Below, one piece after another: positions 1-38,886 of a stretch of DNA of 64,000 nt (position 1 is its first letter; each line of letters starts with the position of its first letter). The DNA is from Stenocarpella maydis (Eukaryota; Ascomycota; Sordariomycetes; Diaporthales; Diaporthaceae): assembly GCA_002270565.1 (NCBI GenBank), contig NQMI01000059.1:124001-188000 (forward strand), in the 5' to 3' direction. A program made the position numbers and the translations under genes. Under the pieces are notes generated by a model, which was not told where the DNA came from, ran no database searches, and was given only the letters and a program-made list of their open reading frames with translations.

Positions 1-438
1 CTTCTTATTGCAAGCCTTACAGATAACCACTGGAGTCCCACTAGTGATTCTAGCATCTGGGTAGAACTTCGGCTATGTATTAGTAGACCTCCTATTCTCT
101 CTAAGAAAATAGGTTCGAGCCTTATTGCGCCTCTGGCTGGTATCTCTGTTGCTACGCCACTGGTGATCAATATATGGTTATAAATAAAACCACTCCATGA
201 ACTGATTAGTATATTCAGTATTAAAGCGATATATATCGTTATTAATGCTGATTGTAGGGAAGTGCTGTAAGCTGATATTATTAATTTGGCTATTAACTTG
301 CTGGGAGGGCTCATCTGATGACTAGAAGCTAATATTTCTTGAGGATGGCTGGCGAGTAGGTGTATTATTATTGGAATTAGAGAACTTAGATATAGAATCC
401 GGTAGAGTAGAGCCTGATACTAAGGGTAATGGTGACAT
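1..438 (-). pseudogene. RIP-degraded CxxC (BED-finger-like) protein relic, 5' part only
   Basis: A minus-strand frame starting at an ATG at 438-436 runs to the left edge with only three in-frame stops, all TAA or TAG. The encoded stretch is Ser/Asn-rich at first, then contains an aromatic segment around QFMEWFYL, a basic RRNKARTYFLRENRR segment and, at the edge, PVVICKACNKK, a CxxC pair as in BED-type zinc fingers at the N-terminus of hAT-like transposases. The family assignment is tentative because the catalytic part lies outside the window. It is divergent from the H3-like relic that begins at 668. Confidence 0.45.
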
Positions 439-667
439 AGAGCCTGAGGCAGATATTATGATGTAAGGGATGAAGGATGAAGAATTAGGAAAAAGATTAG
501 GATAGAGTTAAAGATAATAAAAGGAATGAGATTTTAGATTATATGATTTAAAGTTTAAATCCCGCTTATATAAATAAATAACCCAGCTTTAGGTGTTAAA
601 TTTTTCTCAACTTAATTTTCATTTCCTTCTCTACCCTCCTCTTATATTACCTAATTACCTTACTATT

Positions 668-1378
668 ATGCCTCATTTATCTAACACTAAGGCATTATCT
701 GACTTAGATATAAAGGATATATCTGATGGAGTTTAAGATGATCCTGCTCTACTCCCTATGATGCCCTTACCTAGGTCTGGAAGTGAGATTCTAGAAACAC
801 TATTAAGATTATAAGTGATTCCCAAGCAAAGGAAGCATAATAAGAAGGTATAGAAAGCACTAAAAGGGACTTTAGCAGGAAATATAAGTCTTGTGAATAA
901 AGTCCTAGTTTAAGGCAATGGCTGTAAAAAGCCAATAGCAGTGAAATCAGGAGGTATATGGAGGAATAAGCCAGAATATAAGTAATAAACTGATTAGGAC
1001 AATGATTAGGATATTTACTTAAATTATATATAGGTGCTGCTTACTGAGAGATTTAATGCCTATAAAAGAGTACAGAGCTGGTTCTTCCGTTTATAAGTTT
1101 TAGTAGATTGGTTTGAGAAATTAGCAATCAAAGGCATCCCAACCTATGATGGCAATGGGAGGCAATTATTGGGCTTTAGGAAGCATCAGAAAAGTATTTA
1201 GTTATTATATTTAATGGTATGTTTTTTTTTTAATATTAAAATATTATTGAGCTAATACTTTTTTTTAGCAGGGCTTCAGTGTGCATTATATGCAAAGAGG
1301 ATAACAATATTGCTAAAGGACCTTTAGCTATTGAAAATTATAAGCAATAAGCTAAAAGGAAATATAATAATTTAATGA
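668..1378 (+). pseudogene. Histone H3/CENP-A-like relic A
   Basis: Plus-strand relic. An ATG at 668 opens a basic N-terminal region with TAA/TAG at Gln positions. The exon at about 1034-1216 encodes a clear H3 fold: a YREI helix start, KSTEL, RLVREI and LRWQ, with TGA standing where Arg (CGA) is expected at three or four conserved positions. A 52-nt intron (1217-1268, GTATGT to TTTTAG) is followed by an exon encoding LQCALYAKRITILLKDLQ, matching the H3 alpha-3 region (LCAIHAKRVTI..KDIQ). LRWQ and LQEA are closer to CENP-A than to canonical H3. The N-terminal splice junction is unresolved: a donor at 954 keeps the frame, one at 982 does not. The family is assigned by eye. Confidence 0.8.
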
Positions 1379-1423
1379 ATTCATTATTTATTACTAGCAA
1401 TAAAAGGCTTATCTTAATCACTA

Positions 1424-3457
1424 TTCTAATTATAATTTAATCCGGCTGCTAATCTACTCTGCCATTTTATCTAATTGCTCTAATGCCACCTAGCAGTCCA
1501 GCCGGGGGTCTGGTATGCTATTGTTGTTTTGTAAGGTAAGGCAGTCCCCATTTAAGGTTATATTTTCTCCCTTATAGAATACCACCTGATGTGTATTCTG
1601 GATCTTCCGGCCCTTAACTAATATAATAGTAAGGCTATACTTATAATTGCGAATGCTTGGGAGAGTTCTGGGGGTAAGGATGGTAGGCTTCCTGCTTATA
1701 AAGGCTGCATATATTCCCCAATCAATATTCCAACTGAAATTCCGGATAGAATTAATATAGAATTGGGAAGAGAGATTTATATGGTGGGTAGGTAAGCTAA
1801 TTCTCTTATGATGGCCTCTAAGGCTAAGGTAGCAACTAAAGAACGGAGATGATCTAGTTATTATTAGTGAATATTTTATAAAATAAATATAATTATAATT
1901 TTACCTATCCTCAATTATTTTACCTTCACCTATATAAATTGCCCGGGTGTAGAAGTAGCTATGCCTATAATTCATTAAATTAGGATATGAGTTAGGATAA
2001 ATTATACTTACTGCTGAGTATCCTGCTTATGAATATACTTCGGTTTTTTAGCTGCTGCCTTCTTTATTCTGTTTTATATTATTTGGGGCTTCTTTAATAG
2101 CTATTTCTTGGTTTGAATAATCTTATGCTAGATTACCGCCTCTGGGAGAGTAAGTATTTTTCAGATATTTAGGAAGGGAAGAATGTAAGGCTGGGGATTA
2201 GCGCTAATGTAGATATAGTTATTCTTAGGTAAATCTTCCCAATTAGATTTAAGGTAATCTTTAGATCTCTATTCGTTTAAGAGATTCTGAAAGATATTAT
2301 AGAATTGCTGCTCTTGCTTCTTGGCTGATTTATTAAAGTAAAGGTCCTCCTTAAATTATAGAGGACTATTAGGAAAGCATTCTAGGTAGACCTGATAAGC
2401 TCTAAGGAAATTAAAAGCTCGGCTAGGCTGGCATTAAATAGCCCAGAGCTTTATATATAGCCCTTATAGAGCTATCTCCCAGTAGCTCTGGAATAAATAA
2501 AGTAAAGCTTTTCTAGTTATACTTGTAAAAGCTTGCCCCTAAATATATATTAGCTGGTTGTGATTAGGATAGAGATTAGGATAAATTTACCCCAGTCTCT
2601 TGGACTTGCTTTTTTAAGTTCCTATTAGGCTTTAGGTAGACTAATTTATTTGGGTATTTCTTGTTGGTATGAATTTGCTGTAATACTTGTATGATATCCT
2701 TGATGGTAGTAGAGAAACTCCTTTTGTTTTAAGTAAGAGGGTAATAGCTAGTTATTATTTAAATGACTATAGACTCTTAAGCAGAATTAGGAGCATTTTC
2801 CTAATAGAGATCTAATGTACCCCTGATAAGATTATAGGAGCGGGCGTTTTCCTCTATGCTATATTAAGTAATATTGTATTGCTTAATCTGCTGAACCTCC
2901 TCTTTTATCTTAGCTTTAATTACCTAATCTATATTTTTATTAGTGGTGAGGATTCTGTGATTTTAGGCAATTTGGTCCGGGTGGGAGCTGTTATTATAGC
3001 TTTAAGGATTAGGATACTGATTAGGATAAGTTTAGTATAATAAACTTACTACTTGGCGTTCACTCTTTCTTAGTAGTGCTTTTTAAGTAGCTTGCGCATA
3101 GGTTGAGATATAGCTTTCTATTCTTTATTATTCCGCAGATCTTTAAGGGCTTAGTTAACTGCCTTGGTAACCTTATCTTTTGCCTTGTGGACTTCTTTTT
3201 CCTATTTAGTTATTGCCTGGACTTGCTTGTTGGCTTTAATTATATAAGGGTTTTATGAGTACTCCTTATTACATTTGCGTTTCAGTATATTGGGCTAAGA
3301 AAAATTAATTAGGATAATGATTAGGACGTTTACAGCATTAAATAATACTTACTAGTTGTATATAGTATCTGTAAAAATTTAGGGGATTTTTCTTAGGTGA
3401 TGTTGAGTTGGTAGAAGGTAAGTTGGCTGCTGCTTCTAATGCGCGTTTTTATGGTGG
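1424..3457 (-). pseudogene. RIP-degraded six-exon gene of unknown family
   Basis: Exons on the minus strand are about 3457-3354, 3294-3050, 2987-2591, 2538-2012, 1964-1905 and 1853-1424. The introns are 3295-3353, 2988-3049, 2539-2590, 1965-2011 and 1854-1904, all GT-AG. The frame is preserved across all five junctions (phases 0, 2, 0, 2, 2), which strongly supports the gene model. About 25 in-frame TAA/TAG codons occur where Gln would be natural, plus one TGA. The product would be roughly 600 residues: Lys/Gln-rich and probably coiled-coil early, hydrophobic/aromatic in the middle, ending in a beta-rich stretch. I do not recognise the family. The start codon is not identified (no ATG in frame). 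Confidence 0.7.
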
Positions 3458-3480
3458 GGTGCAGCCGTGCACGGGCCACC
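3453..3480. other. GC-rich hairpin in the divergent spacer
   Basis: Inside otherwise AT-rich DNA, about 3430-3530 is GC-rich. It contains an imperfect hairpin with GGTGG/CCACC outer arms and GTGCA/TGCAC inner arms, followed by the palindromes AGCGCT and CTGCAG. It separates the 5' end of the minus-strand relic from the second H3-like relic, so it may be the remnant of a shared promoter. That role is inference. Confidence 0.4.
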
Positions 3481-3649
3481 TAGCGCTGCACTAAGCTGCT
3501 GCTGCAGTGGGTCCCTAACAACCAAAACAGTAACAACTTCCAACTTAAACAACTACCTACTAATAACCATATAAAAAACAAACCTACTGGTATATATATA
3601 ATATTTTATTTAATAATATTCTTTTTAACTAATATTTATTTTAAAATAG

Positions 3650-4303
3650 GTTTTTTAGTTACTAGCCGACCTCTGCAAGCTGCAGCTAAGGCTGCATCCT
3701 TGACTATACTACTTTTTCCTGCTGCTAAGCCCGCAAGTAAGTTTCATTTATCCTAATCTTTATCCTAATCTTTCTACTAACAATTTCCAAGCTGTAATTA
3801 AGATAGCCTAAACTAAAAATGCCCGAGCTACTGGTAGAAAGGGTAAAAAGGTTGGTAGCAGATATCTTCCACCCCCTACTACAGCCAATAGCGGCAAGGT
3901 AGCTAAGCGTTATAGAAGATTCAAGCCTAGTAGTAAGTTATTATTATTATTTTTTATAATTATTCTAATATTATTTCTAGCTATTACTCTAAGGCAGATC
4001 TGATCTTTTTAGCAGTTAATATGTCTATTAATCCTAAAGCTTCCTTTTTAGTATCTTATCCGGGAGATTATAGGGGATGTAAGCTATAAACCCAAACGGA
4101 TTCAATCCTCTGCCTTAGCTGCCCTATAGGAGGCTGCTAAAGAATACATTACTATATGCATGGAGGGTAAGTCTATCCTAATCCATATCCTAATCAATAG
4201 CTAATATTTAATAGCTGCCAATCTATATGCTATTTATGGAAAGCATATTACTATTATGCAAAAGGATTTTAAGCTTGCTAATGCAATCTGTGAGATTATA
4301 TAG
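3650..4303 (+). pseudogene. Histone H3/CENP-A-like relic B
   Basis: Supported exons end at 3736 and then run 3792-3932, 3981-4166 and 4215-4303, with introns 3737-3791, 3933-3980 and 4167-4214 (55, 48 and 48 nt). All junctions keep the frame. The tail resembles the H3 tail (A-Q-T-K-N-A-R-A-T-G-R-K-G-K-K), followed by TLRQI, LILKLPF, LIREI, IQSSALAAL, then EAA, and after the last intron NLYAIYGKHITIMQKDFKLA. In-frame stops are TAG/TAA at Gln and TGA at Arg. Loop 1 is about one residue longer than canonical H3, and QEAA and IMQKD are CENP-A-like. The last intron interrupts the same Ala codon (phase 1) as in relic A. The 5' end is uncertain; an ATA near 3565 could be a mutated ATG. Confidence 0.85.
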
Positions 4304-4518
4304 GGTTATTATATTATCCGGTTAACTAGATGGATGGATAGTTATTAGGTGCCTTTAAAGGGCGGAAAGAAACTGCCTGCGTAGTAACCAGATGGTAAAG
4401 ATAAAGATAGTGTTTAGGAAAAGATTCTATATCATTCCATCCTAATCTGCATCCTAATTAGATATATAGGACAGAAGCTTAATAGAGCAATTGAAGATTT
4501 TATATTAATGAAATTAAA

Positions 4519-4618
4519 ACCCGTGGGTACCTGCTAAGGACCCATGGGTAATTTTATCCCTGCAATTACCCACGGGTCCTCGGGTACCCATTTGGAAATT
4601 ACCCACCCGCGGGTAATT
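4519..4618. repeat. Cluster of short GC-rich palindromes
   Basis: At the edge of the AT-rich block, about 100 bp contain ACCCGTGGGT, ACCCATGGGT, GGGTACCC (twice) and ACCCGCGGGT, several flanked by AATT on one or both sides. The repeats face each other and could form alternative stem-loops. No coding frame is present. It may be a transposon end or a block boundary, but no target duplication is visible. Confidence 0.5.
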
Positions 4619-4742
4619 CCTGGGCCTATCTAAGTACGTGAGGACCCTCCCTTTAGGTATAGGGAGGGTATTCCAGGAAGCTCCTAGAGGGCCCTCTGTC
4701 TGGGTGTGTAAAGGGCCTTCCCCTGGGTGATTATATACACTG

Positions 4743-5297: not shown

Positions 5298-8200
5298 ATG
5301 ATGGAACCGGGTAATTCTAAGCTGCTTTGTATGCGCGCAGACGCATATGGCTTGGACAAGGGTACTGTTTGCCCCGATACCAACCCATCATCGATGCTAG
5401 GACATCCGAGTTAACTGTCTGAACAGCCGTGGACAAGCTGTTTACTTCCATCTTGGACCACCTCGCAGAGACAGACGTCTTTAGCAAGTCAGAGTCCCCT
5501 AGCGTATTCGTTGTTTACGCGCATGACAATGAAAAAGAAGGCACCGCCAACTCTTGGTGTGTTGTTCGTCTGATCAAATGGCTGAACGCCATCCGATCTC
5601 GAACCGTCTCCGACAAAGCGCCACTACCTCTGTGGGCATCACGTGTGGGAGGTTCCGATTCCATCAAGAACATTCTCTCCAACCAGTTTTGTTTGCTCCC
5701 CGACAGAGACATCTCCAACGACCCCGGTGCCGTCCACCGGGTGGATAAAGTTGTGGTTTGTGGTTCTGAAGTTCTGAAACGATATTATCAGAACAGTTTC
5801 ACTTCATCGTACATCGGCGCTATCATAACCTCATATGCAAAGAAGCCAGTCGATTCCCATGCATTGGAACGGAATATCAGAAGCATCGTAGAGGCCCAGT
5901 GCCAACATGATGCCTTCCATCACGTGCTTACTGAGCTTGCCTTTCTCAGTATTCGAAGTTCATACAGCAAAGATAACCATGGCATCATTCCCGTTACACT
6001 TGACCACGACCTCATGGCGTGGCTACCGTTTCGCGACAATTGCGACCTGGTTCTCAAGCTCAAGTCACTGAAGGACACTGATTTGCATCAACTATTTTTC
6101 AAGCTCCTGGAACAGATATACGTGGACGAGCACGTATTGATCAGAAAATGCAGAGAATGCTATGGCAAAGCCAAAGCGCGATTTCAGGCCGAACCTGACT
6201 TGTCAGAAGCCAGGAGTCAACAAATCGTCGACCAAGAGATCAGCAAGGCACAGAAAGCCCTGAGCGGGATTGAAAATGCTGCTTTCCGCAGTCGAAGACG
6301 GGATATGGATAGTGTTGGCATCGATGAGCATAACAACAGACAAAACCATCGACTTCAGGACGTCGCTGTCAAGCTTAAGTATCTATTTGACGAAAGCAAG
6401 GCCAAGGTGGACAGTGACAAACTTCGCGACTTCCTCGAGTGGCTGTCAACTTGCCCCTTCCATGTGCATCACAAGTCGGTGTCGAGCAGACTGATGCCAG
6501 AGTCCGGTACATGGCTCTCAAATCACTCCGTGTATCGGAACTTTTTGCAGTCGTCCTCATCATCCATCATGCTGGTTCGCGGTGTTAGGGGTTGCGGAAA
6601 GTCATCCATGTTCTCGGTGATGGTGGACCAGCTCCTGTCCAAAAATCAGAGCAATGGCCGCGAACCTGCTGTCGCCTACTACTACTGTGCTGATGAGCCA
6701 TCCGAGCCAGATCGTGCTTCTCCCGGTGGTATACTTCGAAGCATACTCAGACAGTTGGCAGTTGACGAGAAGGGGAACACGATCGATCCAAGCATCTTGG
6801 CAGAATATGAGAGGGCTGCTGACTCTACCAAAAGCCAAACCAACTTGGTCAGGCTGGGAAGTTACGGCTGTGCCGAGCTCATCCTGAAGGTTACAATGAG
6901 CAGGACGGCATATATAGCACTCGATGCGATTGATGAATTGCGACATGAGGCTCGTTCTGAGCTTATCGAAGCCCTCAATCGTATCGTCAATGAGTCCGAC
7001 GGACTGGTCAAGGTGCTTGTCACCAGTCGCAACGATGCCCAGATTGAAGGCCTCTTACAATCCGCAACCACGATAGAGGTTTCTCCTGCGGAAAATCAAT
7101 GCGATATCGAAAAGTTCGCTGCGTCACAACTGAGGGCAATAGTGCGTGGTCGACGACTTCTGAATGGCAGCGCATCAGAGGCGCTGCTGGAAAAGATGCG
7201 TATCACGTTGATCAATGGAGCGCGAGAGATGTGAGTTGACGTACCATAACCAACTGGCAGTGCTGACTCTTGAAACGGCAGGTTTTTGTGGGTTCAGCTA
7301 CAGATCGACTGTCTATGTCGCAAGAAGACAGAGAACGATATCATTACTGCTCTTGACGGCGGCCTGGCGGGAGACTTGGACAAGATCTACGCCGAAACCT
7401 ATGAATCATTCCTTGAATTGGACGAAACTGCAACATATGTTGTCCAAGGTGTCATCTCCTGGATTCTTTATGCGAAACGTCCTCTGACAATCGAGGCTCT
7501 ACGCAGCGCACTAGTGTTGAGCCCAGGTCTCGCGAGCCAACCTGGAGAAGTGACACTTCCCGACCTAGTCGATGTTTGCTACAACATGGTGGTTCTAGAC
7601 TCGGAAATGAACACTCTTCGCCTCTGCCACCCATCCGCTAGGGACTACATGAGCCAGCAAGTCATGTTCTCGGAGGTCTCTGGAAACCAGCTTTTGGCCG
7701 CATCCTGCCTTGAACAATGCTCTCAGGGCCTGACTGGTCCCCCAGAGCGACTCTCAGATCCCTATGCCATCGAGGACTTCTCCCTGTACGCCGCCTTGTA
7801 CTGGCCCGAGCACTTGAAAATGGCAGCACTACCCGCCATGGCCACATGTTCGGCTACTGAGGCAATGACTCGATTCATCTTTCATGAAGAGGATGGTGTT
7901 CTCAACGTGGCTTTCGACTGGTGGCTGGAATGGATCAACCAAGTCATGGAAGTGATTCCTCCGTACCAAGCCCTCAAAAAGACCCACGAATGTGTCACTT
8001 CTCGTGATGGGCCAACGCCGTTGTTCACTGCTTGTGTCTTCGGTTTGCGCAGTCTATTAGACTTGACACTATCCAATATGGAGGATGTCAATCTGGAGCA
8101 ACGGAGCGACACAGGTCATACGCCTCTTTACCTTGCCTGTACCTTTGGACATGGATCCGTCGCGTCAAAACTTCTCGAGCATGGAGCTGATGGCAATGCC

Positions 8201-11200
8201 ACTTGTGGAAGCTATGGAAATCCATTGCACGCAGCTTGTTTCCGGGGACATATCGATGTTGTCAAGACTCTCCTTGGTCATGGTGTTTCAGCACATGCTT
8301 CGACTGTAGCTTTCAAGAACGCACTGCATGCGGCATGCGAGGGATCCCGAGCCGATGTAGCAGACTTCCTCATCAAGACAAAATCAGTAATTAGGGACGG
8401 AGGAGACTACGACGACGCCCTCCAAAAGACCGCCGAGGCGGGCTTTCGGGATGCTGTTGAGTACTTGATGAAGCCCGATGTAGCCAGGAAATTTGGCCGA
8501 GACCCCGGCAAGAAAGAACGTCGACAGGTGCTTGTCCTTGGGACGATCAAAAAAGGCCGAGTTGACATGCTGCAATCTCTCCTACGATCCGACCCCGGAA
8601 TGACCGAGGAGCTACCAAAAGACGCTATGGCAGTCGCAGCTCTGCGCGGACATGTCGAGATGCTTGGTCTTCTTAACGATCTTGGCATGGACTTCGAGGC
8701 AGAGGGGAAGCTTGGGTCACCGTTGCGAAGCGCAAGTCTCCAGGGGAACACTCGTGCTGTCCGCAAGCTCCTGGAAATGGGTGCCGACGCTGCAGTAAGC
8801 TGTCCAAGAGGCGGTCCTCTACACGCAGCTTCCAGCAAGGGCCACGTCCATACCATGCGGCTGCTCATCTCTCACAAGGCAGATGTCAACCAGCATGGCA
8901 AGTCTCGTGGGACTTGCATACAGGCGGCAGCTTACAATGGCCATGAGGAAGCTGTCAAGTTGCTCATTGAAGAGGGTGCCGAGATCTACTGCGAGAGTAC
9001 CAAGTTCAAGGATGCACTTCACGCAGCAGTTCAAGGTGGCCACCTCGAGATTGCCTCGTTTCTACAAGAGAAATATCCACCTCCTCCTGGACGAAGTCTG
9101 CCAGCAATCGCACGCGGGGACCGCCGTGAGCGGTTTTGGTATTCCGAACAGGAGGATCTGGACCCAATGCTTGAGAGGGACCGCAGGTCAAGCAGTCCCC
9201 ATCCAGAGGTCACAGATGACGAGGGTGATGGCGACAGTGTGGAGTCGAAGGGCCCAAGTCAACTGGAACTCACCAATGGTGAACCAGCCAAATACGGCTT
9301 GGTGTTTGCGGCAACCATTGGAAATATTTCAACGATTCGTCAAGAGCTGCAATCCTCCACAGTGGTCGAGGATGGCATCACACAAGCTCTTGTGGCTGCC
9401 GCAGGGAAAGGAAACAATCAGGCTACCAAAGTGCTTCTGGAAGACGGGCTGAGGCACGTTGGATACCCGCGGCAGCCTGTAGAAAAGGGGCTTGTTGCTG
9501 CTGTAAAGCACGGGCAACTGGAGTCTTGCCGAATGCTGACAGACGCACTTGGAGATACTGTCTCTTTTCTAACATGGGCTTCTGCTCTCAAGGAGGCAGC
9601 AAAGATTGGAGAGCGAGTCATTTTGACACAGATTCTTGCCTGGGAGATGCTTGAAGTTCCTCCTTCTTATCCAGACAATACCAGCAGCGGCTTTCCCGGG
9701 CAAAGTAGATATTGGACCGATGAGGACGAGGATGAAAGTGAGAGCGTCCCAACAAGCCCCGTGTATGCTTGCAGAGATGCAATCGAGACTGCTTGTTGCT
9801 CCGGGCACCACGACGTGGCGAATTTTGTTTGGAATTGGATTTTCTCGAGAGGGACAGCCTTGCTAGGGACACGCTTCGATGAATGGGGAGCATTGTCTGT
9901 CACCTCGGCACGTTACGCCGATGCCTCGACCTTGGAGGCCTGTGTTGCGCTCGAAGAACTGTGCCCAGGCAGGCCACGGTTACGAAAGCAGTTGCTTTTA
10001 GCTGCCGTGCAGGGCCAGAATATCCGTACTCTCAACCTCCTTTTCGAGATGATCGAGCAAGGGACTTGTGATGAGAACGAGCTCATCCCATCGTTCATGG
10101 AAGCTTGCCGGGAGGGGTTCGATGTGGGAGCCTTGCAGATGTTGGACCGGAATAAGGACGTTCTCCAGGCCAACGAAATTTCCCAAGGAATGGCGGCAGC
10201 ATCAGCCTCAGGGCACGAGAGAATAGTGCTCAAGCTGCTCGTAATCTTGAAGTGCGAGCGAAGAGACGCCGCGTCCATCAACGATGCAGTCCAGAATGCT
10301 CTGCTCAGTGCGGCTGGAAGCGGGAAGTCGGACGTCATTCAGCACATACTCGATAATACGGACATTCGGGATCACAACGACTTCAACGCCATCATTACCC
10401 GCGCTCTAGTAACCGCATGTGAGTTGGGACACAAAAACGTGGTAGAGCTGTGTCTCGATGAGGGTGCCGACCCCGAGATGACTGTTCTAAAGGCACCTAC
10501 AGACGTGGTGCCGAGTCTTCAAGATGAAGACAGTCTGTTTGGCCACCGCTTCCCTCGTCCCTCTCAGTACCGTTCCTCGTCCCCTAGAGGCCAGGCGCCA
10601 TTCTTGCCCAGAAATCGGCCTCGACTTCATGCTAGGAGCGACACTCAACAGACAGATGCGTTACGGGCCAGCGTCCAGGCATTCGCTCGCATACGTGCTG
10701 TCGAAAGCATGCCTGGCTTTGACACCCAGTCTCCGACAGTGCGAGCCGAAGAGGAACAACAAGTGGAAATCGTGGGTCTCATACTCGACCATGTGATGGA
10801 TGTGGGCGATCGCAGCGGCGAGCAGGCTGCTCATCCACTGCAAATAGCCGCGCAATGGGGCAATAGTCAGGTGGTTCAACTTTTGCTTAAGCATGGCGCC
10901 GCCGATGGCTTCAGTCCGGAGCAGCTCACAGCCTTGATTCTACTGGCAGCCCGGCGGAGGACCGGAACTGCCCATCGCATCATCTTGGAACTGCTCAACT
11001 GTGATCGTGAAACATGTCTACCGACGACCAAAGATGGCTCTCTGGATCCTGCCATGCTAGGGACAATCGGCAATGCTATTAGCCTGTTGAGAGATCCCGC
11101 CAGGGCTAGAGACTTACTATCCAAGAGAGGCCTCTTTGCTTCAGAAAAGGCTGCTCGCGATCTGATGAAAAATGGAATGAGGCAGTTGATTCAGATCATA

Positions 11201-13471
11201 TTTCGCAAGTTGCCCGATCAGACGGCAGGTGGCGGTGTCTTTGGCGACCTCCTTCACGTGGCAACGGTTGCCGGTGACTTGTCCACCGTCAGGCAGCTGA
11301 TCAGACACGGCGTTGATGTGAATCACGCCATGTTTCCTAGCCAGTCGCCTCTTGGTGCTGCCGCTGAGTTTGGCCAACTCCAGGTCATGAAGGCGCTCAC
11401 AAGAGCGAAAGCCAGGGTCCACTCTGATGAACGGGGACCGATGGGTCAAGCATACGGTGCTCAGGAGCCAGCTGTAAAAGCTATCCTAGGAGGCCAGGCC
11501 TCGGCCTTGAAACTGCTGCTCGACGAAGGCGCGGACCCTAATCGTTTCCCTGGCGATGAGTCACTTCTCCTTCTTGCTGCTCGGAGCAAGACTCCAGCCA
11601 TGCTTAGATCCCTTCTGCAGGCTGGAGCTGATCCGAAAGCAGATCCTCATGCCTTGGTTACTGCCGCCCATGATGGCGAGCTGGATATGGTCATCTCCCT
11701 TCTTGACGCTGGCGCAGATGCAAACGCCCTGGCTATCCACGGGACGACCTACCGACAGCAGCACCTCTACAGCCCCCTGTATATTGCCTGCGAGAAGGGC
11801 CATACTGAGATCGTCCATGTACTCCTGGAACGCGGTGCTGATGCCAATCTCGAAGTTGGGGATCAGGATGGTCTTCCTCTTGTTGTCGCCGCCCGGCAAG
11901 GCCACCTGGACATTGTCGAGGCCCTCCTCCAGAATGGCTGCGATCCCACTGAATGGAGCGAAGGCTTCGGGGCAATTCCTGCTGTTGACCAGCGCAAATT
12001 CGGTCCAGCGCTGCGTGAACGGGACTTCCACCTGAATGGCGGCTCCCCCCAGGCTCGAGGCCATGTTGCGGCTCCCCGGGGCGGTCCGGCCCCCGATTCT
12101 GAGTCTACCGACTCTGAAGTGGAGGATGAATTCCATCTCAACGCTATTGAAAGCGCCTGCGCAGGCCAAAAGGGAGTCCTGGCTAGCTTAGGAACCCTCG
12201 AAGTCCTTCTCAAACGGGTCGACGATCCAGACAAACGGGAGGCAGTCTGCTTGGAAGCAATGCAGCAGGTTTCCGAAGCGCAGAACAACCGCATCTTTGA
12301 AGCACTGTTGGAACTCGTGCCTCTGGACTCTGCTGTGCTTGATCTCGCCAGCCAATGCGGCTCGGTGAAAGCTGTGCAGTCGATCTTGGGCCGAGGCATA
12401 AGCATCAATGCCGCCGGTCCAGGTGGCAAAACGCCGCTACAAGTGGCCGTCGACTACGGGCACTGGGAGTTGACACAGTTTCTGGTGGCCAACGGAGCGA
12501 ATCTGGAGACTGGACTGGACAAGGACTCGCCACTCAACCTCTATCGTCTCGTGGCTTCTATCATTGAATCCTACGCATTCTCCACACTGGCGAAGCACAG
12601 GAGCATTACAAGATGTGAGGAGATGGTTCAACAGCTCTTGAAGGCCGCCCAAGACTCTGGGGTGGTGGCCGCAGCAGATCAAGAGTTCCTGGACAGATCT
12701 CTCATTCTTGCTTGCCATGTTGGAAGTGTCGAAATGGCAACCAGTTTGCTCGAACTTGGCGCAAGCCTTGACAGCATGTCGGATCTTGCTGGGCATTCCC
12801 CTGACTACCACATGTCACCGTTGTTTGCTGCTATTGAGGGCAACCATCCGGGTATCTTGCGAGAACTGTTACAGCGGGCTGCTAACCCCAAGCAAAGCAG
12901 GGGCATCGCTTCCTTGTTGGGCGCAGCACTGGAGGCCTGCCTGGGAAAGACAAGCCCGGTTCTTGTACGAACGTTTCTTGATTGTGCCGGTAGCACCTGT
13001 ACCATTACCGAGCAGCATCTTGTGTCAGCCGCACGGAAATTGAAATGGGAGCGAGGCCCTGGAGAGTCCGATTTACAAATCATCCTCGAGCACCACTCAA
13101 CCCTCATACCATCGGAAGAAGTGATTGTCACTCTGTTGAGCACTGACGCTCCGACGGGTCGGGATCCACAACGGGCACTGCACTGCCTCTGCCGCCTTTT
13201 GCGGTTTGTGCTGGAGCGAAGTGACTATGGTGTTACGACACGAATGCTTCAGGCGGCGCACAATCGGGATTTGTTGGAGGTCCTACATGAGTACTGTGAA
13301 GAACGCGAAGCAGCTGACAGCGCGACCCGTGGTGGGAGCATATCGAGCCATGGGCCTGGTGACGGTACAGAGGATGAGTTTCAGGCGGCTCTATCGCAAA
13401 TAGAGTCATACCGAGGTCGCTCTAATGAGTCCTCACCACCAAGGAGCAGAGGGGGCTGTCTCTGTTGCTAG
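5298..13471 (+). CDS. Giant NLR-like protein: TIR/SEFIR-like + NACHT + ankyrin array
   Basis: Proposed CDS: join(5298..5310,5427..7230,7282..13471), 2668 residues. Residues about 25-135 (VFVVYAHDN, LIKWL, NQFCLLP, VVVCGSEVL) resemble a TIR/SEFIR-type domain. A NACHT NTPase follows: Walker A GVRGCGKS near 389-396 and Walker B YIALDAIDEL near 499-508, then LVTSR and a winged-helix stretch with CHPSARDYM near 721. From about 849 to the end is a long array of ankyrin repeats with acidic linkers. The C-terminus is RGGCLCC. Such proteins are intracellular sensors in fungal heterokaryon incompatibility and non-self response. The intron at 7231-7281 (GTGAGT to GGCAG) restores the frame. The long frame has no ATG before about residue 195, so I infer a 13-nt first exon at 5298 and an intron 5311-5426 with a TTAAC branch site. 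That start is the least certain part. Confidence 0.85.
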
Positions 13472-33195: not shown

Positions 33196-36100
33196 TTATT
33201 TCTTCTTCTTGCCGGTCAGGGCGCCGGTGAGAGAGCCCAGGCCGAGGCCGTCGAGCAGCCTGTTGAGGCCGAGCGTGCCCAGCAGGCCGTCGACGATGCC
33301 TCCCAGGCCGAGGCCGCTGAGGAGGCGGCCCACGATGCCGAGGACGCCGGTGAGCAGCAGGCCGACGGCGGCGATGATCTGGAAGAGCGGCTCGCCCAGG
33401 AGGCCCCAGAGGGGGTTGAGCTCCTTCTTGGCGTGGGGCATGTCCTCCAGCTTGCGCTTGGCGCCGTCGATGGTCTCGGTGACGGTTCCGGTGAGCTGTG
33501 TGTGGTGTGGTGTGTCAGTACGTGCGAGGGCTGGTATGCCTGGGCGGCGGCGGCGTGGGATCTGATTCCTTGCTTACCTCCTTGATGACCTCGGCGAGGT
33601 GGAACTCCTCGGGCGTGGCCTCGCGGGTCCCCGACTTGTGCTTGGCGTTGGCCTGGATGTGCCCGTCCGGGTCGAGGCCGCGGATGACGCCGTGCGCCTC
33701 GCGGAGGATGTTGCTGCCCTCCTCGATCAGGGGGCGGACCTCCTTGACGAGGGCCTCCTCGTCGCGCTCGTCCTCGGGCTTGCGCTCCGCGGCCTCGATC
33801 TTGGTGGTGATCATCTTGCAGATGGGCTTGATCTTGTCGAGGCACTGCTCGAGGCACATGGCCATCTGCGTCGCGAGCTTCTTGTCCGTCTCGGCCTGGA
33901 TGCGCGCCTCCTTCTCCTCCTCCGTCTCCCCCTCGGGCTCGGGCTCGGCGGGGATCTCGGACAGCAGGTTGACGTGGCCGACCACCTGGCCCTTGCTGTT
34001 GATAACGTCGCCGTCGTCGTCGACCTCCAGGCCCGAGCAGACGAGCGGGTCGCCGCTTGTGAGCTTGGCGACGATATTGCCGTTCTTGTCGACGACGTTG
34101 CCCTCCTGGTTGACGTGCAGGCCAGCCAGGGCGCCCTTCTCCTTCTGCACCTCCTCGGGCTCCCAGCGCTCGGCCTTGCCGATGACGTTGCCGTTGCTGT
34201 CGAGGATGTCGCCGTCCTGGTCGACGACACGGCCCGAGAGCTTCTTGGGGTCGCCCTCCACGAGGCGGCCGACGATGTCGCCGCCGGGGGTGACGACGTG
34301 GCCTTCCTTGTTGACGGTCAGGCCCTTGAGCTCGGCAAAGATTCCCTCCTTGGAGCCCTCACGCTCGCCCTCGGTGACAAGGTCCGCGTGGCCGATGACG
34401 TCGCCAGACTCGCTGAGGATCTCGCCGTTCTTGTTGCACATGCGGCCGATCATCTTGGAGATATCACCATCGACAACACGGCCGTAGATGACGCCGCTGG
34501 AGTCGACCACGTTGCCGGCCTTGTTGACGCGCTTGCCAGCGAGGATGGACTTGTCAACCTCAGCCTCGGGCTCGGGCTCAGGTTGTTCCTCCTCCTCCCA
34601 GCGCTCGGCCTTGCCGATGACATTGCCAGCCTTGTCGAGGATCTCGCCATCGGGGTCGACAGTCTTGCCCTGCAGGGTCTTCAGGTCGCCCTCGATGACC
34701 TGGCCGACCTGCTGCCCCTCCCACATGACCCTGCCCTTGCCGTCGATGGTGTTGCCCTCGAAGGACTCGAAGGGCTTGGACTCCATCATCTCTTGCAGCT
34801 CATTGTCAGGGATGGGCTCGGCGCGCCCAATCTCCTTGCCGCTGTCGTTCCAGATGATGCCGTTCTCGTCAACCTTCCGGCCGATGAGGTGTGACATGAT
34901 ACCCTGGGTGATGCGGCCGATGGCCTGGCCCTTGTCGTTGACGACGTTGCCCAGCTTGTTGACCTTTGCGCCCTTGAGGATGGAGTAGTCAATCTCAGGC
35001 TCGGGCTGCACCGTGGCCGTTGGGTAGCCACTGGCGTAGGTGTACTCGGTCTGCTGGTCGTCGGGGATCTGTGCCTCAGAGCCAGCAGCCTGCGTGCCCT
35101 CGGCCTGCGTGCCAGCCTCGGTGGCAGGTGCTTGGGTGTCCTCGTACTGAGTGGTGCCCTCGCCCTGCGTCTCGCCGTACTGGGTGGTACCCTCACGGGT
35201 CTGGGAGTCTGCCAGGGTACCATCCTGGAGCTGGGAGCCCTGGATCTGAGTGCCGTCCGGAAGCTGAGTGCCCTCGGGGAGGTTGGCCAGGTCAATCTGC
35301 GAGGCAGTGTAGCCCTCGGGAAGCTGGGTACCCTCTGGGAGCTCGCGGAGTGTGCCGGTCTGTGTCTGGCCCTCGGTTTGTTCTTCACCTGGCAGTTGTT
35401 GGCTGTTGTCAGCGGCGTAGGTGACCGAGTCCTCGGGTCGCAGCTCCTCACCGTCAAGTCCGTCGCCCTCGGTGTACTGGCTGTCCTCGGGCTTTGCCGT
35501 TGTGGTGGCCTGCTCGGTGGCCTCCTCTTCGGTGGTGGCCTCGGTGCCGCTCTTCTGGTCGGAACTCTGGGTTTGCGCTTGGGACTCCCCCGGCATAGTC
35601 AGGTTGGTGCCTTGGTCACCGATTTGGCTCTGGATCTTGCGGATGGACTCTGGAATCTCCGAGTCATCCTGCTGGGTATTCTTGCTACCACCGCCGAAGG
35701 AGGGAACAATCCTGCTGGCACCGCTGACAAAGTTGGAGAATCGAGAGCCAGACTGAGACTGTGCCTTTTGGGCGTCTTCGTTCTCAGTGGCCTGCTCGCT
35801 AGCCAGGTCTGCAGGTTCGGTCATGTCCTTGCCCTCGTCCTCGGGGATGTCATCCTTCTTGGACTCAGCAACCTGCTGGACGTCCTCAGCTGAGCCATGG
35901 GCATCCTCAGAGATATCGTCCTTGTTGAAGCCATTGGACATGAGACTGGGCTCCTTGGCGTTCCTGCTGAAACTATTGTTACTACCAGGTCCTCTGAGTG
36001 CGTCGTCGTCCCCTTCGTATCTCACTGACTTGGCGGTGCTACCGGCAGCCGACTTTGCGTCGCCGACCTTGGATTGCACTTGAGACTGTGCGTTATCACC

Positions 36101-36259
36101 TCCCTCCTGGAGCAGTTCCGGCTCTTGGACGCCCTTGTCATGTTGGAGTTGCTGCTGGGCTGTGCTGGTGGGGGCCTCAGAGCCGTCATCACCCTTGGAT
36201 GACTGCTGCTGCTTGTTCTTGCCCCATGGCCAACCTCCTGGGGCCTGTGTGTCCGCCAT
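33196..36259 (-). CDS. LEA-like DUF3659 repeat protein with C-terminal hydrophobic domain
   Basis: CDS complement(33196..33495,33578..36259), 993 residues. The intron 33496-33577 is GTAAGC to CACACAG and joins VIKE to LTGTV. The N-terminal 400 residues are acidic, Gln/Ser/Thr-rich and low-complexity with many G-T-Q repeats. The centre carries about nine copies of the DUF3659 unit (pattern: LxGxxVNKxGNVVDxxGxxIGRVxxGD, with AERWE between some). Near the C-terminus are an MCLEQCLDKIKP segment, a helix-rich part and a hydrophobic Gly/Leu stretch (LFQIIAAVGLLLTGVLGIVGRLL) ending GKKKK. The family is widespread in filamentous ascomycetes and compared to late-embryogenesis-abundant proteins; its role is not established. 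Confidence 0.85.
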
Positions 36260-37698: not shown

Positions 37699-38886
37699 CT
37701 ACGAAAACACAACTTTGGGCTGTGCCGGTTGCCCATTATTGTTGAAAACTGTTGGGATGCGTATGGTGAGCTGAATGCCCTCGGTGGTCGACTTGACGTC
37801 GAGGAATATGTCCGAAGGGCTGGGGTTCCTCGCCTTGGGCTCTTTCCTATGGCTCTGTGCATTTTCGCGGGGACGCGACTCTGACGAAGATCCCGCCCCG
37901 TCGCCTGACCCAGAATTCTTGGGCCTCTGTGCCGAACTGGAAGGTTTTGAAGGCGCCTTGCCAGTTTTCCTTTGACTACCTTCGCTGGCCTTCTTCCCGA
38001 AACCGGTCTTGTTGTCGTGGAATGAGCCGACGACATTCCCCTCGGAATCCAGTATGTTACCGAATGGGTCAACTCTCAAGCCGCCGGGTCCCTGACCGGC
38101 AGCAGCCATAGCTTTCATGACTTCTGCCAAGTCCCACGTTGGAGGTTGCTGTTTTGATTCTTGTTGCTGGCCCTCTCCGGTTTCCACCTCAGCCACGTAC
38201 CCGAGCAGTTCGTCGTCGTCGCCCAGCACATCGCCCCGGGCGTTCGATATTTTCCGCCCAACCATGGAGGGTAAATCACCCTCGACTCGGCCCAAGACAA
38301 CTCCATCGTCCAAGATATCTCCGAACTCATCGATAACCTTGCCCACGAGATGATCTTTAGGGATTTGGTATATGGGGAGTTTCTGGGGCGAATCTGAAGA
38401 TTGGCCTTCTGGTGGTGGTGTTGGTTGAGCGTTGAAGTCTATGGGGTCGATTGGGCCGATTTTGGGGATCCCCCCAATGGGCGCAACATAAGCCGGGCTG
38501 TCCTTTGGTGTCTTTTCCCGCAAACCACCTGGGCTCTGGCTGCGCTCACGGTCAGGGCTGTCGCCTGAGATTTTTTCTACCTCGGGGCCATCATCATTGT
38601 CCCTGCCAGGTTTAGGGCTGCCTTCGCGGTGCGCAGACTGGCGATGAATGTTGTCGGCACCGCTGTTGGCATGACTGCCGGCCCCAGGCGCACCAGGCCT
38701 AGAGCTGCCGCCGAAGTTGGTGTTTTGGTCCATTGGGATCTCGTAGGACCCTCGCAGTGGCCCCTTATGTGACACCTTCTCGGTCGACATGGACCGGTTG
38801 TGCATGGCACTGCTGCTTGTTGTAGAGTGTGTACGGACTATGCCTTCTGAGCCGATGGTAAGGCTTGACGACCGTGATCTAGACAA
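37699..38886 (-). CDS. Second DUF3659 protein, shorter paralog
   Basis: Intronless frame of 395 residues. The N-terminal 150 residues are disordered (Ser/Pro/Gly/Asp). The middle has IPKDHLVGKVIDEFGDILDDG, VVLGRVEGDLPSMVGRKISN, RGDVLGDDDELLGYV and later LRVDPFGNILDSEGNVVGSF, which are DUF3659 units of the same pattern as the upstream neighbour. It ends with a conserved-looking SDIFLDVKSTTEGIQLTIRIPTVFN segment. It lies in the same orientation as, and 1.4 kb from, the larger DUF3659 gene, suggesting an old tandem duplication followed by divergence. Function unknown. Confidence 0.8.
   Translation of the reverse strand: MSRSRSSSLTIGSEGIVRTHSTTSSSAMHNRSMSTEKVSHKGPLRGSYEIPMDQNTNFGGSSRPGAPGAGSHANSGADNIHRQSAHREGSPKPGRDNDDGPEVEKISGDSPDRERSQSPGGLREKTPKDSPAYVAPIGGIPKIGPIDPIDFNAQPTPPPEGQSSDSPQKLPIYQIPKDHLVGKVIDEFGDILDDGVVLGRVEGDLPSMVGRKISNARGDVLGDDDELLGYVAEVETGEGQQQESKQQPPTWDLAEVMKAMAAAGQGPGGLRVDPFGNILDSEGNVVGSFHDNKTGFGKKASEGSQRKTGKAPSKPSSSAQRPKNSGSGDGAGSSSESRPRENAQSHRKEPKARNPSPSDIFLDVKSTTEGIQLTIRIPTVFNNNGQPAQPKVVFS

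Follow-up and report, generated by a model that had tools for sequence, protein, structure and literature searches.

Histone H3 genes in a degraded block

At the start of the stretch of the Stenocarpella maydis genome analysed here (C267:124001-188000, 64,000 nucleotides; hereafter the window) lies an AT-rich block (window 1 to ~4630, GC 0.346) in which two genes for histone H3-like proteins, H3a and H3b, can be read. Window 1-4628 very probably represents the right two thirds of a hAT-type DNA transposon, inactivated by repeat-induced point mutation (RIP), which carried H3a, H3b, a central gene and a transposase gene. Each histone gene was modelled in three exons.

668..977, plus strand: H3a exon 1, a long N-terminal region of ~103 codons with no H3-type tail
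1034..1216, plus strand: H3a exon 2, alpha-N to alpha-2 of the H3 fold (PF00125, 28.9 bits)
1272..1373, plus strand: H3a exon 3, alpha-3 of the H3 fold
3803..3932, plus strand: H3b exon 1, H3-type tail; the start codon and several further codons are lost in the window copy
3981..4166, plus strand: H3b exon 2, alpha-N to alpha-2
4215..4333, plus strand: H3b exon 3, alpha-3 and a C-terminal extension

A first-pass annotation of the window, made from the letters and their open reading frames, had proposed two paralogous H3-type genes in a RIP-degraded block, and the profile searches bear out both folds. A scan of the genome (53.5 Mb, 312 contigs) with PF00125 gave a match at window 1039-1212 that contains 6 internal stops (28.9 bits; cut-off 26.4), and the plus frame of the copy on C279 holds two Histone stretches (Pfam Histone E 4.2e-23 for the frame). 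When the whole window was searched in six frames with the host H3 protein (phmmer), only the H3a and H3b regions matched; shuffles of window 1-4628 in 2-base blocks gave a match in 0/200 cases. Spliced H3b reached 5e-23 against Pfam Histone and 3.5e-25 against H3 chains of the PDB, and the joined H3a core of the C279 copy matched the PDB H3 chains at E 5.5e-15. H3b of C279 is intact, with 144 codons and 0 stops. Where stops occur, a sense codon is found in some copy at 15 of 18 sites in H3a and at all 11 in H3b, and the other two frames contain more stops. The extent first given for H3a (plus strand, 668-1373) stands; that of H3b moves from 3650-4303 to 3803-4333.

H3a and H3b each contain two phase-1 introns, at codons aligned with H3 T45 and D106 (canonical H3 residue numbering). 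The intron before alpha-3, at the D106 codon, had been recognized from the outset as common to both genes; the one at T45 is a second. These two shared positions indicate descent from one intron-bearing gene, in keeping with the proposed paralogy, and core identity between the two proteins is 27/90. The host H3 (C100) and CenH3 (C112) genes, both single-copy and GC-rich loci, have the same fold but differ in intron placement: read by eye, their introns lie elsewhere and are in phase 0, for example after L70, the leucine of FQRL/FARL, in both. A tandem copy of host H3 or CenH3, the ordinary explanation against which the first-pass annotation had set its own, was rejected; the host loci lie elsewhere, resemble other H3s more closely than they resemble H3a and H3b, and have other intron places.

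The same annotation saw both genes leaning towards CENP-A (CenH3) and raised the idea of an accessory-region CENP-A family. Single residues do point in that direction (RWQ in H3a, QEAA and IMQKD in H3b copies), but neither core is more similar to CenH3 than to H3: identity is 46/96 to host H3 and 43/101 to host CenH3 for H3b, and 35/86 and 34/90, respectively, for window H3a. Loop 1 has the H3 length in H3a and one additional residue in H3b, as against three in host CenH3, and the H3b tail is of H3 type, beginning MARTK in two copies. CENP-A identity was rejected on core identity, loop length and tail; with an ordinary host CenH3 present at C112, a mobile or accessory CENP-A family is extremely improbable.

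Copies, transposition and RIP

The element measures ~7.4 kb when whole, a length obtained by adding the C267 left end to the body of C279, every copy being incomplete. From left to right, its genes are the transposase (minus strand), H3a (plus), the central gene (minus) and H3b (plus), enclosed by TAGGCCCAGGAATTACC inverted repeats. The right end falls at window 4628, and most of the transposase gene lies upstream of the window.

1..458, minus strand: hAT-type transposase exon 1 (5' part); further exons upstream at C267:122139-124000; the C267b copy was read through in 4 exons with no indels between copies, and this reading matches its own genome at C267:122139-124459
4519..4628, no strand: element right end, with palindromic CCCGTGGG-type words and the terminal inverted repeat, closing in ...GGTAATTCCTGGGCCTA

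A genome search with the C279 copy recovered long relatives on C279, C267 (two pieces, one of them the window's), C273, C30, C257 and C255; another, on C153, was found with the left part of the element as query, and an older relative of 67-80% identity lies on C12. Several of the four genes are present in the C279, C267, C273 and C30 copies; taken with the two-ended C30 and C257 copies, these place H3 and transposase genes together between inverted repeats. Among 11 two-ended family members, the 8-bp target duplication is exact in 7, matches at 7 of 8 bases in 1 and is missing from 3 (the window's C267 complex, L041 and L047). Among the exact cases are two that carry H3 genes: C257, which is 3.0 kb long with an internal deletion, and the rearranged C30. 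The suggestion that the histone genes sit in a repeated, mobile element beside relic genes is thereby supported.

In copy C267a the transposase reads as 941 codons in 4 exons, with no inserted base in 5 other copies. At 78 of its 85 stop sites some copy has a sense codon, and stops are more numerous in the other two frames of these exons. Two domains were matched below their cut-offs: Dimer_Tnp_hAT (PF05699) at the C-terminus (E 0.012, 15.9 bits; cut-off 21.4) and zf-BED (PF02892) near the N-terminus (E 0.087, 13.3 bits; cut-off 20.6). Likeness of the catalytic core to an RNase H fold is by eye only. A genome scan with PF05699 gave no match, as was also true of the controls.

Three observations weigh against the identification of the block as a hAT element. 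The flanks of the window's own C267 copy match at 2/8 bases only, leaving it with no target duplication. The catalytic core, in a read-through of 4 copies, matched no Pfam family and no solved PDB structure. Finally, none of 6418 candidates in a protein-database search with the transposase reached E 0.001, a negative obtained with a RIP-damaged query, so that absence is not proven. hAT is the best name for the element in view of its inverted repeats, 8-bp duplications, weak domain matches and likeness to published elements. An 8-bp duplication by itself is not diagnostic of hAT, and the unmatched catalytic core would also suit a P-element-like or other transposon that makes 8-bp duplications. 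Such an origin is nonetheless highly improbable, given that Dimer_Tnp_hAT and zf-BED lie at the expected ends, though sub-threshold, and that the published fungal carriers of H3 genes are hAT elements.

The base composition and the differences between copies bear the marks of RIP, as had been read from the block itself. TA/AT is 1.22 in window 1-4628 versus 0.45-0.86 for equal stretches of 5001-64000. Young copies differ almost exclusively by transitions (286/289 between C279 and C267b, 380/386 between C279 and C273, 361/364 between C267b and C273), most frequently in the CpA/TpG context, the pattern of RIP, which turns C into T and G into A at such sites within repeats. Over 435 coding sites of H3b, C267b, C273 and C257 each have 0 transversions relative to C279, C255 has 12 and C12 has 63. 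The C255 and C12 copies are older than the C279/C267b/C273/C257 set, and the near-zero transversions among the young copies imply that these were almost identical when they spread and underwent RIP afterwards. Rfam and tRNA scans of the window gave 0 matches.

The proposed course of events begins with what the copies themselves document. Transposition spread the element, as its TAGGCCCAGG inverted repeats and the 8-bp duplications of its targets show; by the transversion clock this spread was recent, the genes were then largely or wholly open, and RIP made nearly all later changes. The intact H3b of C279 could alternatively be a domesticated gene that selection in the host preserves as the remainder of that copy decays. 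Its stop counts fit this idea: H3b contains 0, 6, 7 and 8 stops in C279, C267b, C273 and C257, respectively, and within C279 the transposase has 37 (824 codons present) and H3a 12 (198 codons). The neighbouring central gene of C279, however, is also lightly damaged, with 10 stops in 545 codons; at that rate ~2.6 would be expected in 144 codons, so the 0 stops of H3b may be due to chance, and domestication is very unlikely.

Several further observations concern the family and its insertion sites. Six small elements of 292-985 bases (L032, L034, L045, L048, L055 and L056) have the same ends as the H3 element and are flanked by 8-bp target duplications, one of which agrees at 7 of 8 bases; the same transposase likely moved them. 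The same 8 bases, TGTCCAAC, occur at the left flank of the C267 element (L011 3034-3041) and at the right flank of the C279 element (L009 5840-5847). These are the matching halves of a single target duplication, split between two contigs, which points either to recombination between the copies or to a misassembly at that point. In addition, an LTR-like (long terminal repeat) sequence of 507 bases is inserted in several H3-element copies (e.g., L010 2775-3795). It is found 94-100% alike at >40 places in the genome, has apparently been spared by RIP, and in C279 is present as two inverted copies that meet at an N.

H3b tail, central gene and paired octamer

In C279 the sequence of the H3b tail is MAQTKNTRATGGK; C273 and C257 have MARTKNA.ATGGK or something very close to it (the dot marks a stop). 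The H3b tail retains MA(Q/R)TK4 and the TGGK lysine and lacks K9 and any ARKS motif, so the full K4/K9/K14/K27 set is not present. Seven database relatives of H3b were compared. A clear tail is missing from P0006 and P0007; the remaining five, P0001-P0005, have K at position 4 in 5/5 and K at position 9 in 0/5, position 9 being R in P0001, P0002 and P0003, Q in P0004 and P in P0005. The P0002 tail was counted from an internal methionine, and all five were compared as protein records. The best database relatives, from Botryotinia calthae (P0001; 54% over 72%) and Pseudogymnoascus destructans (P0003; 45% over 81%), resemble H3b in reading IPKLPF where host H3 has IRKLPF, in their C-terminal extension, and in a tail with K at position 4 and R at position 9. 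Retention of K4 together with loss of K9 provides the ground for a reading in terms of silencing evasion and is not a test of that reading. An older H3b relic (L043/L035, C12:522876-524711) has its introns at the same places but a tail of another kind, rich in lysine and built of KKAVT-like repeats; beside this relic lie an assembly gap and a 16-base-like repeat in a long array.

Between the two histone genes lies the central gene.

1433..3294, minus strand: central gene, 5 exons (3050-3294, 2591-2998, 2012-2538, 1905-1963 and 1433-1834), ~545 codons modelled

Its three longest copies contain 10-30 stops in the reading frame versus 28-68 in the other two frames, at 49 of 54 stop sites at least one copy shows a sense codon, and the exons of C279, C267b and C273 are free of indels except for one gapped codon. 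Comparison with Pfam gave nothing above cut-off, and none of 6025 candidates in a protein-database search reached E 0.001, although with a RIP-damaged query absence is not proven.

Scattered among these genes is a paired octamer, TCCTAATC-N4-TCCTAATC, with a 12-bp period. It has 31 exact matches in the genome (reversed control, 0), 27 of which lie in H3 elements and 2 in small elements (C290 and C263) that share the ends and have exact target duplications; the remaining 2 are on C291, in ordinary GC-rich DNA. Allowing <=2 mismatches, 8 pairs occur in the window, all within 1-4628 (shuffles, 0.02).

483..502, minus strand: 1 mismatch; gap between transposase and H3a
992..1011, minus strand: H3a intron 1, inverted relative to the gene
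2562..2581, minus strand: intron of the central gene
3007..3026, minus strand: intron of the central gene
3307..3326, minus strand: 1 mismatch; ahead of the central gene's first modelled exon
3751..3770, plus strand: likely intron upstream of the H3b start
4176..4195, plus strand: H3b intron 2
4440..4459, plus strand: 1 mismatch; between H3b and the right end

All 8 pairs fall outside the modelled exons, even though exons make up 68% of window 1-4628. Occurrence in both orientations relative to the genes makes a splice signal unlikely; our guess is that the pairs may be binding sites for an element protein.

Outside the element, an NACHT-type (NPHP3_N) frame followed by a 2061-aa ankyrin-repeat frame occupies the adjoining window 5429-13471, and the two are perhaps one fungal NLR-like gene. 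DUF3659 repeats occur in two minus-strand frames, at window 33518-36259 and 37702-38886. The H3, CenH3 and other genes of the host are those of a filamentous ascomycete; its acetolactate synthase scores highest against PDB 7egv, a Trichoderma protein (970.5 bits; the next match, 888.2), a weak pointer to Sordariomycetes.

Published H3-carrying elements and the role of the histone genes

The first-pass annotation knew of no described system of this kind. Such systems have in fact been published, and the element belongs to an already described kind, hAT transposons that carry H3 genes. In Pseudocercospora fijiensis and five other Mycosphaerellaceae, hAT elements have been described that contain one H3-like gene or two, all full-length elements having two (Dhillon et al. 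2019, PMC6710886), a finding restated in a 2026 Pseudocercospora study (PMC13041039). Those elements resemble the one from S. maydis in their 8-bp target duplications, inverted repeats (there 18-20 bp), RIP with CpA bias, AT-rich blocks and a host H3 that is intact elsewhere (PMC6710886). They differ in length (9.5 kb versus ~7.4 kb), in abundance (135-784 H3-like copies per genome versus about eight sites here), in the presence of DUF659, for which no match was obtained here, and in H3 genes described as intronless transcript captures, the second copy with a 16-residue insertion (PMC6710886). Compared by description, what the S. maydis element has in turn is two introns per H3 gene, a central gene and one intact H3b. 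Since H3b intron 2 measures 48 bases here, the 16-residue insertion might be an intron of that length translated as coding sequence.

A transduplication element with an H3-like gene (H3L) from Pyrenophora tritici-repentis shares the order transposase-central gene-H3 and also occurs in shorter versions that lack some of the genes (Manning et al. 2013, PMC3538342). It is 5.6 kb long and carries one H3L, and 26 nearly identical, unmutated H3L genes with expressed sequence tags are described; the S. maydis element has two H3 genes and heavy RIP, the central genes being compared by description only. Protein searches with the transposase and central gene gave no match at E 0.001 in collections from which the published element sequences are absent. 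What is new here is that the introns are shared, the H3b tail lacks K9, a central gene accompanies two H3 genes and the paired octamer is nearly private to the family. These details hint that the histones may be long-standing parts of the element and not a recent accident.

How the histone genes came to be there can be read in two ways. The first is passive cargo: a host H3 transcript or gene was once captured by a hAT element (transduplication) and was never of use to it. This is the published reading for Pseudocercospora (PMC6710886) and Pyrenophora (PMC3538342), in which the H3 captures are treated as separate and intronless. Against capture without function stand two introns that H3a and H3b have in common and that are absent from host H3 and CenH3, a core identity between them of 27/90 only, H3 genes that, RIP aside, were still open when the copies spread, and the presence of introns where the published copies are called intronless. 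We regard passive cargo as modestly probable.

The second reading is long-term histone service, in which the H3 genes would have been travellers with the hAT lineage for a long time, as opposed to fresh copies of host H3; this is a serious possibility that falls short of probable. Three lines of evidence count against it, the first two of which favour passive cargo. Small elements with the same ends and octamer moved without H3 genes. Transversions in H3b between C279 and C12 are distributed over the codon positions as 26, 18 and 19, and a selection test on transversions by codon position, comparing C279 with C12 and C255, found no third-position excess, hence no codon-position sign of selection relative to the old C12 relic. 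Lastly, an H3 tree, from which 4 of 18 rows (P0006, P0007 and H3b of C12 and C255) had been dropped beforehand, has weakly supported branching and places H3a beside CenH3 with support of 32 on a very long branch.

Were the genes in service, H3b might enter nucleosomes with host H4; as it has K4 but neither K9 nor an ARKS motif, the resulting chromatin would be unable to take the K9 mark, which would benefit the element. We consider this step doubtful. In the most far-reaching form of the proposal, which we think unlikely as a whole, one old fungal hAT family with working H3 variants of its own would extend across ascomycete classes, the Pyrenophora, Pseudocercospora and Stenocarpella cases being one family, and the K9-less H3b would dress element DNA against silencing marks, perhaps recruited via the paired octamer. 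If H3b does not serve the element in this way, the H3 genes would be passengers.

Core histones are essential and dosage-sensitive; a transposon with a histone of its own would be a direct genetic attack on, or a shield from, chromatin silencing. The shared private introns, the two diverged paralogs, the Pyrenophora-like gene order and the K9-less tail make the working-gene reading testable with public genomes. If the genes are cargo, S. maydis would supply one more independent example of H3 genes amplified and then mutated by RIP, perhaps beyond the Dothideomycetes. Its element raises the question of whether the published H3 captures are one family.

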